This document shows positions 9,248 through 32,463 of a stretch of DNA of 44,107 bases, piece after piece (the stretch's first letter is position 1; each line of letters opens with the position of its first letter). The stretch is from a virus. The position numbers and the translations under genes were made by a program. The stretch is taken from positions 1-44,107 of the IMG/VR virus record IMGVR_UViG_3300032157_000021; one strand, given 5' to 3'. The notes below the pieces were generated by a model that saw nothing but the letters and a program-made list of their open reading frames with translations, was not told the origin of the DNA and did no database searches.

Positions 9248-9502
9248 TTAATCCTCCCATTTTAACCAAGGTTCTTTTCCTGGTTCACAATTACTCCATA
9301 CCATCTCATACTTGTAATCCCCTTCTATGATAATGCGCCCAGGGTTTTCTTTGGCCCATTTACACATGCTCTTTTCATGGGCGGTAAGTGCTGGGTTACA
9401 GCAATCAAGGTAGTATTTATTTTTTGTGACAATTGGTTTTGCTATGCACCCAGGTAGACCAACCAGGATTGCGGCAAATGCAAGACTTAACTTTAGTCCC
9501 AT
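9248..9502 (-). CDS. Small putative lipoprotein
   Basis: The ATG at 9502 was preferred to an upstream start because it places a signal peptide at the N-terminus: MGLKLSLAFAAILVGLPGC, with a lipobox-like LPGC at 16-19. The mature part (about 65 residues) has four more Cys and is Trp-rich at the end. A phage lipoprotein of this size could act in superinfection exclusion, as a spanin-like outer-membrane subunit, or to block a receptor. It is not proline-rich like typical Rz1, and no inner-membrane Rz partner overlaps it. Confidence 0.62.
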   Translation of the reverse strand: MGLKLSLAFAAILVGLPGCIAKPIVTKNKYYLDCCNPALTAHEKSMCKWAKENPGRIIIEGDYKYEMVWSNCEPGKEPWLKWED

Positions 9503-9825: not shown

Positions 9826-10074
9826 TTATGATCGGTCACTTTCAGGCTCCGCGACAGCCGTTGCCGGTTCATATTTTCGTGTTAATTCTAAATACTTTTT
9901 TACAACGCCATCAAATGCAATAACGATGCTTTCTAAGAGCGCACCTTGGGTATTAATACCACGCGCCAATTCACGAATATCGCCCTGTGCGACTTCAAGC
10001 TGTTGTTCGAGTGATAGCGTCGCTACTTTTGGGTTTTCTTCTACAACACGTCCTTCCAATGGTAAATCAGACAT
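9826..10074 (-). CDS. Hypothetical helical protein
   Basis: This encodes 82 acidic residues, almost all helical between 20 and 68 (coiled-coil-like, LEQQLEVAQGDIRELARGI). GGAGA precedes the ATG by about 6 bp. It shares one base with the stop of the upstream gene. Such short acidic helical proteins are common in phage early regions; no function can be assigned. Confidence 0.65.
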   Translation of the reverse strand: MSDLPLEGRVVEENPKVATLSLEQQLEVAQGDIRELARGINTQGALLESIVIAFDGVVKKYLELTRKYEPATAVAEPESDRS

Positions 10075-10280
10075 TATTTTTCTCCTTTTGATTCAGTAGT
10101 TTCAGATTGTTCTTCGGTCACGACTTCCCCCGTCGCAAGGGTAGTCGTTTTCTTTGTAGTTCTGGTGCGCTTTTGTTTTTTATCGTCCTTCTCTTTGTCA
10201 TAGTAAAATTCTCTTGCAACGTAATAGAGAATCCCCGCCTCCATCAACCACATTGTCCACTCTCTCAATTCCGCCAACAT
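10074..10280 (-). CDS. Hypothetical protein with hydrophobic N-terminus and charged tail
   Basis: This encodes 68 residues. The N-terminal ~25 are hydrophobic and aromatic (WTMWLMEAGILYYVAREF), possibly one membrane helix, and the rest is a highly charged Lys/Thr/Glu tail (KKTTTLATGE). The start overlaps the stop of the kinase-phosphatase gene in a TAATG, so it is coupled to it. Function is unknown. Confidence 0.62.
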   Translation of the reverse strand: MLAELREWTMWLMEAGILYYVAREFYYDKEKDDKKQKRTRTTKKTTTLATGEVVTEEQSETTESKGEK

Positions 10281-12841: not shown

Positions 12842-13237
12842 TTAGCCTCCGTTCCTAACAATTAACTCTGCCGGTTGATTGGCTTGTATTCGAGCAGCAA
12901 GTTCTTTGACGGCTGATCCTTGAATTTGATCTCCCACGCGGTTGTACCCAACAAGAATACATCCGAGACTATCCTCTGGTCGATTTCCACCGTGGATACA
13001 CACTCCGGTGAACATGGGGACATCGTGCAAGTATGGATACATCTTATTTTTGTCGCCCCGAAATGGTTCAACAGTAATCTTGTAAGTTCCTTCTGGTATT
13101 GCTGTTTCTCCGTAGACTTTTTCTCCGGGCGGTCGAACTCGGTCTTCCAAGGTTTTACAAAATTCCTTACCATCAATTTCCAAGACACCCAATGTACGAT
13201 CCGGGAGATACTCATATCTAATTACCTCAAATTTCAT
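12842..13237 (-). CDS. DUF5675 family protein
   Basis: This 131-residue protein matches DUF5675 by its whole pattern: an N-terminal strand, GVLEIDGKEFCKTLED, an EKVYGETAIPEGTYKI segment, then the PYLHDVPMFTGVCIHGGNRPEDSLGCILVG block with conserved His, Gly, Asn and the SxGC motif. Family members occur widely in phages and mobile elements and are often near lysis or wall-active genes; the Cys/His pair in HGGN...SxGC resembles L,D-transpeptidase-type active sites. A role in cell-wall handling is therefore an inference, not established. It is coupled to the upstream small gene by ATGA overlap. Confidence 0.85.
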   Translation of the reverse strand: MKFEVIRYEYLPDRTLGVLEIDGKEFCKTLEDRVRPPGEKVYGETAIPEGTYKITVEPFRGDKNKMYPYLHDVPMFTGVCIHGGNRPEDSLGCILVGYNRVGDQIQGSAVKELAARIQANQPAELIVRNGG

Positions 13238-13587: not shown

Positions 13588-13764
13588 TTATCCAATCTTC
13601 TTTGACATCACGGCTACTCGTGCTTCCATAGCGCGAATCTCTGCGACAAGTTTAGCAATGCGACCTTCATACTCTTGGACGGCTGCATCATACCCTTCTT
13701 GCCAGCCATCTTGACGGCCTTGGTCATAGCCGTAACCATAATCATTAATGTTTAATCTCGGCAT
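13588..13764 (-). CDS. Small coiled-coil protein with Gly/Tyr-rich N-terminus
   Basis: This encodes 58 residues with AAGGAAA 6 bp before the ATG. Its first part is a Gly/Tyr/Asp-rich helix of repeated YGYxxGxxDGWxxGYxAAxxEY type, seen in many small phage and bacterial proteins, and its second part is a helical segment (GRIAKLVAEIRAMEARVAVM). It overlaps the upstream gene by 20 bp. Function is unknown. Confidence 0.62.
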   Translation of the reverse strand: MPRLNINDYGYGYDQGRQDGWQEGYDAAVQEYEGRIAKLVAEIRAMEARVAVMSKKIG

Positions 13765-13984
13765 ATTGTTTCCTTGGTAATACCCCTGATAAGCGGTAGA
13801 TTTTTTTACCTATCTTTACAAGTTTGAGTCCACCAGCGAGAAGATATTGAAACTTGAACTTAAGCATGTTTTCACCACGCACGTTTGTGTAAACTTCGGG
13901 ATGAGCAACCCAAGTATAGTATGAGCCCTTCTCGATCTCATCTCGCATGGCGCGGCGAATAGCCTTAACCTTGGTTGCTCGCAT
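13745..13984 (-). CDS. Hypothetical basic protein
   Basis: This encodes 79 residues, very basic at the N-terminus (MRATKVKAIRRAMRDE). A beta part follows (LKFKFQYLLAGGLKLVKIGKKIYRLSG), giving an RNA- or DNA-binding flavour but no known family. GAGG lies about 9 bp before the ATG. Confidence 0.65.
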   Translation of the reverse strand: MRATKVKAIRRAMRDEIEKGSYYTWVAHPEVYTNVRGENMLKFKFQYLLAGGLKLVKIGKKIYRLSGVLPRKQYAEIKH

Positions 13985-13986
13985 GT

Positions 13987-14241
13987 TTATTTCACCTCAA
14001 GTTCAGGCTTTTTCTTTAGTTCTTCTTTTGGCGCATCCGCCAATTTGAATGTTTTCAAGATATGGTCGGCATAATTGATGATACCAACATGCTGCTGAAT
14101 TAAATCTTGAAGGCGCGTGATCTCTCTCTGCCATTGCCCTATTGACGCTTTCGCCCCATCAATTTGATCTTGAAAATGCTTCTTAGTAAGGTCTTTCAAA
14201 GGTGGTGCTTCTGCGCCGGTTGTCTTCTTTTCTTCGCTCAT
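13987..14241 (-). CDS. Coiled-coil protein
   Basis: The second of two close ATGs (14241) has GAGGAG at the better distance, giving 84 residues. A long helix with heptads covers about 18-65 (QIDGAKASIGQWQREITRLQ). The ends are charged and probably disordered. Its 5' part overlaps the upstream gene by 59 bp in another frame. Confidence 0.63.
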   Translation of the reverse strand: MSEEKKTTGAEAPPLKDLTKKHFQDQIDGAKASIGQWQREITRLQDLIQQHVGIINYADHILKTFKLADAPKEELKKKPELEVK

Positions 14242-14371
14242 TTTCATTCTCCTCTAGTAATTGAAGTAGTAATTTAACATCTTCACGGTATACGGTAAAC
14301 CATGATTTTCCTGGTATTTCTTCCGGGTGTTCAAGCCGGTACTTAATTCCTTGAATTAAATCCCAACGCAT
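14183..14371 (-). CDS. Small hypothetical protein
   Basis: The ATG at 14371 has AAGGA 8 bp upstream and lies inside the 3' end of the protease gene. The 62-residue product is charged: an N-terminal helix (MRWDLIQGIKYRLEHPEEIPG), a middle part with W and Y, and an Arg/Glu-rich tail (NENERRKEDNRRRS). It overlaps both neighbours, which lowers certainty about the exact ends. Confidence 0.52.
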   Translation of the reverse strand: MRWDLIQGIKYRLEHPEEIPGKSWFTVYREDVKLLLQLLEENENERRKEDNRRRSTTFERPY

Positions 14372-15116
14372 CGAACAATCCTTGCCAATCCGATTCGACA
14401 TCACCTATGCGATACCGCTTGCGTTGCTGACTTTTCTCGTTTTTCAATTCGTAGGTTTTTAGGAAACTATGAATTTCCTTAATTGGTATGGCAATGCCAA
14501 TCCCAGTAGGGCCAAACGTATTCATCCGCATAGCCGACACAATACCAATTATTTCACCTTTGATATTGAAGACTGGCCCGCCGCTGTTGCCCGGATTCAC
14601 CAAGGCGTCTGTTTCAATGACCGTAGAGAAATACGTCCACGACCAAGGAAGGCGACTGATGATTCCAGTAGTAAGCGTCCAATATCCCGAAAAGGGATGT
14701 CCGACGATCAACACATCTTGGCCGACATCGAGCTTATCAGAGGCTTGCAGTTTTGAAAAGACAAACTGTTGAGCAGACGCGACAGGTTCAACCAAAGCCA
14801 AGTCAGACCGTGTGTTCACAGAAAGAACTCGAATATCGTACTCGTTGCCATCTGACGTTATCATGGTGATTTTCTTGTAGTCATTTGGTGTCACAACATG
14901 AGCAGCCGTCAATGTTCTTCCTTCCTTCGATATGACAACCCCGGCTCCTAAAGCTCCGCCAGTTCCGTACTCAACGAAAATAACTGACGTTGACGCGACA
15001 GCTTTATGAATGACCTTTGGAGGCCAAGAGTATCCAACAAAGGACGTTTTGTCAATGGTGAGGCACGATAACAGTATGATGACCGCACCATAAAAGAATG
15101 TTCGCTTAAAGTCCAT
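14343..15116 (-). CDS. Membrane-anchored trypsin-like (HtrA/Deg-type) serine protease
   Basis: This 257-residue protein has GGGAGG 7 bp before the ATG. Residues about 5-20 are a hydrophobic export signal or anchor with a Cys at 18 (LLSC), so lipid modification is possible. The S1 protease domain follows with the full triad: His73 in TAAHVV, Asp105 in RSDLALVE and Ser178 in NPGNSGGPVF. No PDZ domain is present, and the C-terminus is a short charged tail. It should act in the periplasm or on the outer face of the inner membrane. Possible jobs are degrading host envelope or exclusion proteins, or processing phage envelope proteins. Serine proteases of this type are rare in small lytic phage genomes. 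Confidence 0.9.
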   Translation of the reverse strand: MDFKRTFFYGAVIILLSCLTIDKTSFVGYSWPPKVIHKAVASTSVIFVEYGTGGALGAGVVISKEGRTLTAAHVVTPNDYKKITMITSDGNEYDIRVLSVNTRSDLALVEPVASAQQFVFSKLQASDKLDVGQDVLIVGHPFSGYWTLTTGIISRLPWSWTYFSTVIETDALVNPGNSGGPVFNIKGEIIGIVSAMRMNTFGPTGIGIAIPIKEIHSFLKTYELKNEKSQQRKRYRIGDVESDWQGLFDALGFNSRN

Positions 15117-15348
15117 TTCCGTGACCTCCCTTACATTGAACGCCGCCTCTTGGTTTACCGTGACCTAACCAATGAAGCATCTCATTACAAACTCCAATTC
15201 CAACACGAAAGATAAATCTTTGTTTGAAATTATACCAAGGAACTTTTGAAAACCTGAAGATATAGCCTTCACGAATACCCATAATATCATAGAAGGTTAA
15301 AACTTGGTCTGCTTCAAACACAGGCCGTGGATCAGGTGGATTTTGCAT
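15106..15348 (-). CDS. Hypothetical protein upstream of the protease
   Basis: This encodes 80 residues with GGAGGTAAC directly before the ATG. It holds WYNFKQRFIFRVGIGV and a C-terminal Gly/His/Lys/Cys-rich end (HWLGHGKPRGGVQCKGGHG). No family is recognised. Its 3' end overlaps the protease start by 11 bp, so the pair may be translated together. Confidence 0.65.
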   Translation of the reverse strand: MQNPPDPRPVFEADQVLTFYDIMGIREGYIFRFSKVPWYNFKQRFIFRVGIGVCNEMLHWLGHGKPRGGVQCKGGHGNGL

Positions 15349-15350
15349 TG

Positions 15351-16142
15351 TTACCTCCGATCTCGCAAGAGATTCTTTTTCTTTACCGTGGAGAATAAAT
15401 TGATTCTCCCGTGTGGACGTTTTTTACAGTCCTTACAGAGGTATCCTTGGAACTTACCCGCGTCTGTATAGACAAAACCATCTTTAACTAGGTTCGCACT
15501 ACCACATCTGCACCGAATGGCCGCGTCATCAAAGAAACATGCTAGATTCTGCGTCTTGATCCATCCTTGAATCTTTTGGTAGAGTTCTTCAGTAGCCAAA
15601 ACATCGTGGATACAATATTTTTTCATGACGACCCAAGCATGTTTATCGCCGCCAAGAATAGCTTTCCAAAGTTCAAAACCTGGATATTCTTCATGCTTTA
15701 ATTTCTTATATTTTGTATTGACATTCTCTGACATATACTCCAAAGAGTGAGAGGTAAAGCTAAACACCTTTTTACTTTCTTTAAGAGTATCCGTACTTTT
15801 GTAGTGACGCACCGGCGGAAGTCCATGAATCACCGCTCGCGCATTGAACTTTTTAATGTCGAACTTGTCTCCATTTTGGGCTATCACGATATCAGCCTGG
15901 TTTAGTAAATTAGCCAATCCAGCAACTAGAGCCTTATCGTTCCGAATATCCTTGGATCGTCTATTGTCCATATACTTGACTTTTGATTCTGGCTCGCCGT
16001 ACCATTTCGCCGCCCAAGCTAAAATATGCCAATCGTCTTTGATTTGATTCAGCCCGATATTTTGGTCATACAGTCCCCATGTGTAAGCTGTGATTGGAGC
16101 CGTCTCAATATCGAATACGAGAATTCTTGGCTTATTTGACAT
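15351..16142 (-). CDS. DnaQ-like 3'-5' exonuclease with C-terminal zinc ribbon
   Basis: The ATG at 16142 has GAGGAGG 7 bp upstream and gives 263 residues. The RNase H-like exonuclease fold shows ExoI FDIETAP (D11, E13), ExoII in QNGDKFDIKKFNARA, and ExoIII around YCIHDVLATEELY, as in the predicted 3'-5' exonuclease of phage polymerase-B type. The last ~55 residues carry CRCGSANLV and YLCKDCKKR, a zinc ribbon that could hold a nucleic-acid end. The gene overlaps the RNA ligase stop by 11 bp. It could trim RNA or DNA 3' ends, and its place beside the RNA ligase makes an RNA-repair or RNA-decay role worth considering against a DNA role. Confidence 0.88.
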   Translation of the reverse strand: MSNKPRILVFDIETAPITAYTWGLYDQNIGLNQIKDDWHILAWAAKWYGEPESKVKYMDNRRSKDIRNDKALVAGLANLLNQADIVIAQNGDKFDIKKFNARAVIHGLPPVRHYKSTDTLKESKKVFSFTSHSLEYMSENVNTKYKKLKHEEYPGFELWKAILGGDKHAWVVMKKYCIHDVLATEELYQKIQGWIKTQNLACFFDDAAIRCRCGSANLVKDGFVYTDAGKFQGYLCKDCKKRPHGRINLFSTVKKKNLLRDRR

Positions 16143-17046
16143 TTGCAACCTCCTCAGAAGCGAACTGCGATTTCGCTAAACGGTCTTTATAGTATTCAGG
16201 AAAACCACCAATCACGCCTCGCGCAATCTGCGGCCAGTAATAGGCGAACAGCTTTTCTTTGATTTCCTCGCCCATTTCTTTTTTAACGTCATTTTGAATC
16301 TCCCTAAGTAAATTGCCAATATCGCGTGGGGACTCCTCAAGAGTACCAGCTTCACGAAGATGCTGAATGGTCTTTTCCCAACGTGCGTCTGTTTTCAGAG
16401 CCGCGACAAGAATGGTCAAGAAGTCTGCCCGACCAGGATTGGCCGCGCCCCATTCTTTACCATGAACTTCCTTAAACGCCTCACTTACCCATTTGGCCAT
16501 AAGCACTTTTTTGTCAGGGCCATATTGGTTATAGTTTTTGAAAACCATTCCTTCGATCTTAGCTTTACCAAGTACAGAAACGTTCTCAAATAAGGACTTT
16601 AATTGTTCATAGTTATCAACCTTTCCTCTAAAGAAAACTGGTACAGTTTCAAGACCCAATCGGTCAGCTTCAGCTTTCTTCTCTTCTGGCGTTAAGTAAT
16701 CTTGATCGCCACGGTCGATATCAAAAATTATGACATTGTTCTGCGGCGTCCTTTCGTATTCGAGCGAGTTATGTTTCGGTCGGCAAAGGACTTCCCCTCG
16801 GTATATCCACCCTTCTTGGAGTTGTTCTTTGACTGAGACGACGTACTCTGCTGCTCCTCTAAAGAGTTTATCGGTAACTGGTTCGTAGAGGACAGCACCC
16901 TTTGAACGCATAAATAGCACTCCATCATGTTTTCCAAATGAGAACTGTGATCCGTCAACTTTTTCTTCAATTAAGACCTCCGTGTCAAAAATGTTCTTAA
17001 TGAGCTTATGGCCAAGATTAAAAATACTGGGGTAGCTATGCAGCAT
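16132..17046 (-). CDS. RNA ligase (Rnl2-like nucleotidyltransferase)
   Basis: This encodes 304 residues, with AGGAGG 5 bp before the ATG. Nucleotidyltransferase motifs are in order: I EEKVDGSQ (lysine 29 becomes AMP-bound), the GE motif in YRGEVLC (82-88), VIIFDID (105-111), IV EGMVFK (165-170) and V LMAKWVS (182-188). Length and motif layout fit the Rnl2-like family of ATP-dependent RNA ligases rather than DNA ligases, which have an OB fold after motif V. The C-terminal ~100 residues are helical. It seals 3'-OH/5'-phosphate RNA ends, which the Pnkp at 10280-11110 could produce. It shares an operon with a 3'-5' exonuclease. Confidence 0.92.
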   Translation of the reverse strand: MLHSYPSIFNLGHKLIKNIFDTEVLIEEKVDGSQFSFGKHDGVLFMRSKGAVLYEPVTDKLFRGAAEYVVSVKEQLQEGWIYRGEVLCRPKHNSLEYERTPQNNVIIFDIDRGDQDYLTPEEKKAEADRLGLETVPVFFRGKVDNYEQLKSLFENVSVLGKAKIEGMVFKNYNQYGPDKKVLMAKWVSEAFKEVHGKEWGAANPGRADFLTILVAALKTDARWEKTIQHLREAGTLEESPRDIGNLLREIQNDVKKEMGEEIKEKLFAYYWPQIARGVIGGFPEYYKDRLAKSQFASEEVANVK

Positions 17047-24820: not shown

Positions 24821-25057
24821 CTATTTTGACGACTTGAATAAAAACGACGTGAGTAATGTCATGCCCCACGCTTGTAAAAATGTAATGTGATATGGTGCAT
24901 ATTCTGTAATTCCAAACACTTGAGCGTATGGAAATAATGACGGTACTAAAGCATTCCAAAGTAATTGAACTGGCCAAGCATATAAAGCAGACAGCCCAAT
25001 TGCTACCAAAAGTAATGCTGGTATTGCAATCAACGCACTAAGAATTTTACCTATCAT
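24821..25057 (-). CDS. Small membrane protein next to the holin
   Basis: This 78-residue protein has two membrane segments (about 4-28 and 58-74) around a WPVQLLWNALVPSLFPY motif of a kind found in many small phage and bacterial membrane proteins. It starts in an ATGA overlap with the holin stop. A second holin, antiholin or holin regulator are the natural hypotheses from position; none is proven. Confidence 0.72.
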   Translation of the reverse strand: MIGKILSALIAIPALLLVAIGLSALYAWPVQLLWNALVPSLFPYAQVFGITEYAPYHITFLQAWGMTLLTSFLFKSSK

Positions 25058-25479
25058 TTGTTTGCCACTCCTTTGACCTTCTCATAAGATCGCATACCAC
25101 CTAATCCAAGCATACCAAGCAAAACGCCTGATATCTCACCAAATTCGATATGTGGTAGTGCTATTGGATGTCCTGCCGCTGTTAAAAAGAAAATTAAAAC
25201 GGGTTGACCAATGTAAACCCAGGCGAACGCCGAACCACAAACCCAACCAATAAACGGACGCCATCCACTCACAAATAAGCTGCTCGATTTCGCTTCCTCT
25301 TTGTTGACTTCTATCTGTGATTTGTCAAGTTCCGCAAACGTCTTTACTAATTCTGTCTCTTGCTGAAGCACTTGCAATTGAAATTCTGCCTTGGCTTTCT
25401 CACGCGCCGCTACGTCGGGTATAACGCGGTCTAAAACTTTTGCTCCGATCTCAAGTAAGCTGCTTATTATAGGTATCAT
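25054..25479 (-). CDS. Holin, 3TM family (PF11351-like)
   Basis: This encodes 141 residues, with GGAGG 9 bp before the ATG. The first ~65 form an amphipathic helical arm (LLEIGAKVLDRVIPDV, then a long charged coiled coil), followed by SGWRPFIGWVCGSAFAWVYIG, a second hydrophobic segment VLIFFLTAAG and a third GVLLGMLGLGGM. The helical arm followed by a WRPFIGW membrane entry is that of the 3TM holins of phages and gene-transfer agents, which form membrane lesions at the end of infection. The gene is on the early strand, not in the late unit, so timing of lysis may depend on a switch in expression or on protein accumulation. Confidence 0.86.
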   Translation of the reverse strand: MIPIISSLLEIGAKVLDRVIPDVAAREKAKAEFQLQVLQQETELVKTFAELDKSQIEVNKEEAKSSSLFVSGWRPFIGWVCGSAFAWVYIGQPVLIFFLTAAGHPIALPHIEFGEISGVLLGMLGLGGMRSYEKVKGVANK

Positions 25480-29895: not shown

Positions 29896-30130
29896 AGTTT
29901 CCTCCATTGTTTATACGATCAAGCGTAAAGACTTTGCTAGGCTTGCGCCCCATGTCTTCAATGAATTGCTCGTAACTGTTTCGCCATTGTTCGCATACTT
30001 TGATACCGCGCCCACCATAGTTTTTATAGCCCGTCGCGGTTGGTAGTTCACACCGTCGTATCATGTGGCACCATGATCTATACTCCGTTGACGGCGGGCG
30101 ACTCTCGCCATGTGTTTTCTTCCATGTCAT
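29804..30130 (-). CDS. Mini-HNH family protein, copy 2 (YGGRGIKV type)
   Basis: This 108-residue protein has the same order of blocks as the copy at 27690-27995: YRSWCHMIRRCE, YGGRGIKVCEQW, FIEDMGRKPS, TLDRINNGGNYEPTNCRWATKKQQARNRR and a basic tail. The copies are clearly related but far from identical, so they did not arise by a recent duplication. The stop overlaps an ATG (ATGA) and the start overlaps the gene upstream (ATGA), so it sits seamlessly in the operon. It is probably a homing-like mobile gene. Confidence 0.78.
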   Translation of the reverse strand: MTWKKTHGESRPPSTEYRSWCHMIRRCELPTATGYKNYGGRGIKVCEQWRNSYEQFIEDMGRKPSKVFTLDRINNGGNYEPTNCRWATKKQQARNRRERNRDKQGRFK

Positions 30131-30378
30131 AACGCGCCTTGTTCAATCACGGCTTCAAGTTCGGTTTGAGGAATAGGAGTAACCGTAAGGAAATCAATTT
30201 CATTTTCTTTGAACCACGTTGATATGTGTTTTGACGTGGTTCGGGAATAGAAATCAACTGTTCTAAATCCCTTGTCGAATGTGTCAATTAAAGCAACCGG
30301 CGTTTCATAAGAAAACAACACTTTGAAATTACCGTAGTCTAACTCTGTTTTATTCGCGCCTAATGGTTTAAGGTTCAT
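30127..30378 (-). CDS. DUF8033-like small protein
   Basis: This encodes 83 residues with GGAGA 8 bp before the ATG. The pattern GNFKVLFSYETPVALID and TTSKHISTWFKEN is like a small phage family with a GY..S.YSTPVA motif, recently listed as DUF8033. Functions in the family are not known to me. A sigma70 promoter lies just upstream (30416-30444). Confidence 0.7.
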   Translation of the reverse strand: MNLKPLGANKTELDYGNFKVLFSYETPVALIDTFDKGFRTVDFYSRTTSKHISTWFKENEIDFLTVTPIPQTELEAVIEQGAL

Positions 30379-32392: not shown

Positions 32393-32463
32393 GCCCTCTT
32401 AGCTCCAAGGCGGAGCATCGGTTTTGTAAACCGACGGGGAGGGTTCGATTCCTTCAGGGGGCT
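32393..32463 (+). tRNA. tRNA-Thr (anticodon TGT, reads ACA)
   Basis: The sequence folds as a full cloverleaf: acceptor GCCCTCT/AGGGGGC (7 bp, one G-T), D stem GCTC/GAGC, anticodon stem TCGGT/ACCGA with 7-base loop TTTGTAA (anticodon TGT at 32425-32427), 4-base variable loop and T stem GAGGG/CCTTC with TTCGATT loop. The next base (T) is the discriminator; CCA is not encoded. It is the only tRNA seen. It lies between the packaging genes and could improve decoding of ACA in Thr-rich virion proteins or replace a host tRNA lost to cleavage. Confidence 0.95.

Follow-up and report, generated by a model that had tools for sequence, protein, structure and literature searches.

The HtrA (Do) proteases DegP, DegQ and DegS are built on a common trypsin-fold domain with the motifs TAAH, D-LAL and GNSGGP, and are exported to the periplasm; in DegP and DegQ, the PDZ domains serve substrate handling and cage assembly. 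The phage protease studied here, encoded in the viral record IMGVR_UViG_3300032157_000021 (the window, i.e., the whole 44,107-base stretch that was analysed), shares this domain and these motifs at roughly 25-39% identity to HtrA/Deg proteases, and is predicted to reach the same compartment. It differs from DegP, DegQ and DegS in having no PDZ domain and in the place of its gene, which lies in a lysis-neighbouring locus.

HtrA-like proteases have already been annotated in other phages, but their sequences and surroundings are different. These include p036 of Rhizobium phage 16-3, the 'HtrA protease' of Rhizobium phage AF3, and PHROG 9683 and 11383, which are trypsin-like and annotated as 'typically periplasmic'; besides that of phage AF3, further annotated viral examples are present in BFVD and on a large freshwater contig. 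The p036 protein presents 29% identity over half of the protein and a different neighbourhood, with no wall hydrolase seen adjoining it in the phage 16-3 annotation.

Lysis of Gram-negative hosts by phages is described as the work of a holin, an endolysin and a spanin or disruptin. Like the protease, spanins and disruptins would act on the outer envelope as infection ends, and some of them are lipoproteins. The protease, however, is a protease-fold enzyme and not a membrane-fusion protein or a peptide, and has no sequence relation to them. The literature searched, the coverage of which was partial, contained no paper that places an HtrA-type protease in phage lysis.

Protease gene and predicted product

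The genome carries a capsid gene of the N4gp56 family (TIGR04387, 6e-53) and an SU10-like portal. The protease gene occupies 14343-15116 on the minus strand, with an ATG start at 15116 and the ribosome-binding region GGGAGGTCACGG upstream, and its 257-residue product is an HtrA-like, trypsin-fold serine protease of S1 type, predicted to be exported. The match to Pfam Trypsin_2 (PF13365) has an E-value of 8e-27 and 95.2 bits (cut-off 27.6) and covers a full-length domain (residues 57-192, profile positions 1-144). The NCBIfam Do/HtrA model TIGR02037 matched with an E-value of 2.5e-40 and 138.7 bits against a curated cut-off of 416.2, and the DegS model with 77.8 bits against 423; neither cut-off was reached, both being whole-protein cut-offs of models that take in the PDZ region. 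HtrA structures in the PDB were matched with an E-value of 8.6e-28, and an AlphaFold2 model built from sixteen phage sequences (pLDDT 83) matches DegP, DegQ, HtrA1 and DegS-deltaPDZ (Foldseek E-value of 6e-18 to DegP). Hence, the original prediction of an HtrA/trypsin-like protease agrees with Pfam, NCBIfam, the PDB and the structural model, as does its catalytic triad with the family motifs: H73 lies in TAAHVV, D105 in SDLALV and S178 in PGNSGGP.

No Pfam PDZ match is present in the approximately 35 residues that remain after the protease domain, as had also been foreseen, and the fifteen phage homologues described below have no PDZ domain either, as judged by length. The protein is classified as Trypsin_2/S1-type and, given the missing PDZ domain, not filed as a canonical HtrA. 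In its predicted working it resembles the HtrA protease domain, and the gene product is apparently intact. PADLOC matches to RT-Protease, LmuA and PDC-M35A cover the shared trypsin domain, with no partner genes seen, and a defence system was rejected.

The export segment that had been proposed is present at residues 1-18 (15063-15116, minus strand), composed of KR, a hydrophobic stretch and LLSC18, and all sixteen phage proteases have such a hydrophobic N-terminus. Cys18, the possible lipid attachment site, is the sole cysteine of the protease and satisfies the PROSITE PS00013 lipobox rule. A strict lipobox by this rule is found in six of the sixteen proteases, the one studied here among them; near-lipoboxes were seen on inspection in L068, L043 and L084, and some other members of the clade are clear lipoproteins by sequence. 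The nearest homologues, L066 and L067, have no cysteine at the lipobox site and present ordinary-looking cleavable signal segments. Since the hydrophobic N-terminus occurs in all members and the lipobox only in some, envelope export looks conserved across the clade and lipid anchoring does not; the proposed lipid attachment is possible for the protein of the window and fails to extend to its closest kin. A cytoplasmic maturation protease was rejected, given the export segment in all sixteen proteins and the distance of the gene from the structural module.

Homologues in related phages

Relatives were sought by scanning with the neighbouring exonuclease and the DNA polymerase, which yielded fifteen records. 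DNA polymerase identity to the window is 81-82% in L042 and L043 and 56% in L044, while L002 was found via its exonuclease (66% identical). These four of the fifteen carry an HtrA-like ORF at 32-37% identity and in the same gene-order place. Viral scans with single protease sequences returned no new relative, one of them recovering just its own record. An alignment-based scan of IMG/VR brought the total to fifteen phage homologues plus the protease of the window. The search for homologues in other N4gp56-capsid phages, suggested at the outset, therefore shows the gene to be recurrent in related phages. Loss of the triad among homologues, set beforehand as a ground for refutation, was not seen: the triad and GNSGG are kept in all sixteen proteins.

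The sixteen phage proteases form one clade (support 98/91), apart from PDZ-bearing viral HtrA and from cellular HtrA, the cellular sample being small and biased. Subclade A consists of the protease of the window, L066 and L067 (support 100/100), and subclade B of the remaining thirteen members (100/99). The L077/L078 pair presents a dN/dS of 0.124, which indicates purifying selection on the protease in that one pair. The closest cellular matches found are at most 39% identical, in a pattern-biased sample: the scan of genome contigs gave mainly Colwellia-type HtrA through this bias and is no fair census of cellular relatives.

Gene neighbourhood

In most members, the protease gene directly follows an exonuclease/RNA-ligase block. 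In the window, this block comprises an RNA ligase (16132-17046) and a DnaQ-like exonuclease (phrog_403, 15351-16148), the conserved anchor of the locus, both on the minus strand like the genes that follow. Between exonuclease and protease lies a conserved 80-residue ORF (15106-15348; 62-67% in L042 and L043), which overlaps the protease start by 11 nt. Downstream are an 86-residue protein with a coiled coil by inspection (13987-14247), conserved in L084 and, by inspection, in L042 and L043, a small conserved protein of 79 residues (13745-13984, i.e., reverse-strand positions 30124-30363), and a DUF5675 protein (12842-13237), which is presumed to be an endolysin given that it takes the slot of the M15 or M23 peptidoglycan hydrolases of the relatives.

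In 13 of the 16 members, the protease gene is followed on its own strand, at a distance of 0-3.2 kb, by a wall-hydrolase or DUF5675 gene, and four families are involved. M15_3 is found in L066 and in L067, where the hydrolase ORF overlaps the protease stop; M15_4 in L042 (23.9 bits, just below the Pfam cut-off) and L080, with L077 and L078 assigned on inspection by similarity to L042; M23 in L002 and L043; and DUF5675 in the window, L068, L079, L084 and L086. No recognised wall hydrolase stands right downstream in L044, L075 and L130, nor in G019, the carrier of a third type of protease. The thirteen loci are related and do not represent thirteen independent events; the hydrolase family has changed several times, and the gene arrangement has stayed.

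From its position, DUF5675 is probably an uncharacterised endolysin family; its fold prediction is of low confidence (pLDDT 69), with no PDB match. The DUF5675 proteins of the relatives (L084 9232-9630, L086 8791-9183, L068 5202-5744, L079 5300-5848) and of the window share an H...D..GC motif reminiscent of L,D-transpeptidases. The host is presumably Gram-negative, which fits the single-domain hydrolases of 130-180 residues and the lipoprotein signals. A GTA_holin_3TM holin (phrog_3427) is encoded at 25054-25479 (minus strand), and a holin of this family occurs in eight further records, the majority of which carry the protease. No Rz-type spanin was recognised in 21 records with or without the protease, a type of protein hard to recognise from sequence; since protease-free relatives also have none, this absence does not discriminate.

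Other genes of the region and of the record include a small cysteine-rich putative lipoprotein (GLPGC; 9248-9502, minus strand), conserved in L043, L077 and L078, and a short protein at 10074-10280 (minus strand) that has a single membrane segment at its N-terminus and a tail rich in Lys and Thr. The latter recurs in relatives (L066 4011-4244, L067 3656-3913, L086 9468-9671) and is a candidate for an additional lysis or membrane protein. A tRNA-Thr (TGT) gene lies at 32393-32463 (plus strand), just upstream of the terminase.

Exchange of the protease gene

In their polymerases (79-82% identity) and exonucleases (64-68%), the window, L042 and L043 stand at almost equal distances from one another. 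Their proteases depart from this pattern: L042 and L043 are 57.5% identical to each other, and the window's protein is 31-32% identical to either. The window shares its flanks with these close relatives (the 80-residue ORF upstream and the small proteins downstream), yet its protease is of A type. Tree and identities together support an exchange of the protease between phages with similar polymerases, with a small residual chance that an assembly chimera in this metagenomic record is the source of the apparent swap.

A putative recombination scar is found at the C-terminus of the protease, whose tail WQGLFDALGFNSRN (14346-14388, minus strand) resembles the subclade-B tail of L084 and is absent in the subclade-A kin. 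The body of the protein has the A-like end RYRIGD (compare L067), after which comes WQGLFDALGF, a match to WAGLLDALGF of the B-type L084; none of 3000 shuffles was as good. A small ORF beginning MRWDLIQGIKYRLEHPEEIPGKS... (14183-14371, minus strand) starts inside this tail and overlaps both the 3' end of the protease and the next gene. It is conserved in L084, where it starts MRWDL..., and in L042, without the MRWDL start, and its start within the tail would explain why the B-type tail was retained.

The record G019 (31 kb, capsid 82% identical) encodes a third, very different trypsin-like protease with an export segment (L195 1423-2142, minus strand; GDSGGP, Trypsin_2 1e-15) in the same region, approximately 1.3 kb beyond its exonuclease. 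All five records that are at least 30 kb long and show a capsid identity of 82% or more encode a trypsin-fold protease, predicted to be exported, in this region: the window, L042, L043 and L084 with the HtrA-type clade, and G019 with the third type. The exonuclease at 15351-16148 is itself replaced in L077, L078 and L084 by a homologue approximately 25% identical; the whole locus is mosaic.

Possible roles of the protease

An export signal on a protease encoded near a wall-cutting enzyme suggests a tool for the host envelope, and action at the envelope is well supported by these sequence features, from which we infer actual export and activity. Of the roles considered, dismantling of the envelope in connection with lysis ranks as the likeliest, with a probability of roughly 0.4; its lysis part we infer from position, and target and timing are likewise presumed. 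The infected cell would export a PDZ-less HtrA-type serine endopeptidase, predicted to be catalytically competent, to the periplasm, lipid-anchored in some members and soluble or signal-anchored in others. Its gene occupies a conserved slot on the leftward strand, with the block of replication enzymes on one side and the gene for the cell-wall hydrolase on the other. With no PDZ gate, the enzyme may cut exposed periplasmic or outer-membrane-associated proteins, e.g., those tying the outer membrane to peptidoglycan, and this cleavage would let the peptidoglycan hydrolase free the progeny. The lysis reading is suggested by the hydrolase or DUF5675 gene downstream and by the holin family present in several protease carriers. 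The envelope dismantling of the original prediction has thus gained support that is positional. Position is no proof, however: the gene stands last in a replication block, and its expression could be early. The more specific combination, in which at least three interchangeable protease lineages fill a slot reserved for an exported serine protease and the enzyme brings about spanin-like outer-envelope lysis by cutting the tie proteins, is distinctly improbable as a whole.

The rapid swapping suits a host-facing arms race at least as well, and a tentative alternative is that the exported protease removes a receptor, an entry protein of a rival phage or an envelope-located defence protein, in superinfection exclusion or counter-defence. 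High gene turnover is usual for host-interaction genes, and the swapped subclades against near-equal polymerases and exonucleases, the third protease type in the same region and a place after the replication genes, which fits middle expression, all point this way. The endolysins of the locus are swapped too, however, so that swapping is not specific, no envelope defence target is known, and the repeated proximity to wall-hydrolase genes speaks against it. We consider it unlikely that a DegP-like helper clears misfolded envelope proteins or relieves stress while phage membrane proteins are made: although Do, DegP and DegQ, the closest relatives of the protease domain, have such a role in cells, the phage protein is devoid of PDZ domains, infection is short, and hosts already have HtrA.

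Processing of a phage protein, e.g., activation of a wall hydrolase or a virion protein, is very doubtful despite the nearby hydrolase gene, as the hydrolases encoded nearby come from different families and have no obvious signal-anchor segment to release (by inspection), and structural genes lie elsewhere, their products being cytoplasmic; the earlier suggestion that the protease activates a lysis protein found no specific support. A passenger gene of host origin without a role, or an assembly chimera, could account for the finding that the closest phages carry another protease subclade, but it is already disfavoured and scarcely credible given that all sixteen members retain the triad, an open frame and the export segment, and given the low dN/dS of L077/L078 (0.12), the conserved locus, and the distance to the closest cellular matches found.

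Were the protease to serve simple quality control, it would be an ordinary auxiliary gene. Alternatively, it may serve envelope-level competition. If the preferred reading of envelope dismantling linked to lysis is true, the conserved protease encoded next to the endolysin and exported would represent an additional, enzymatic route through the envelope.
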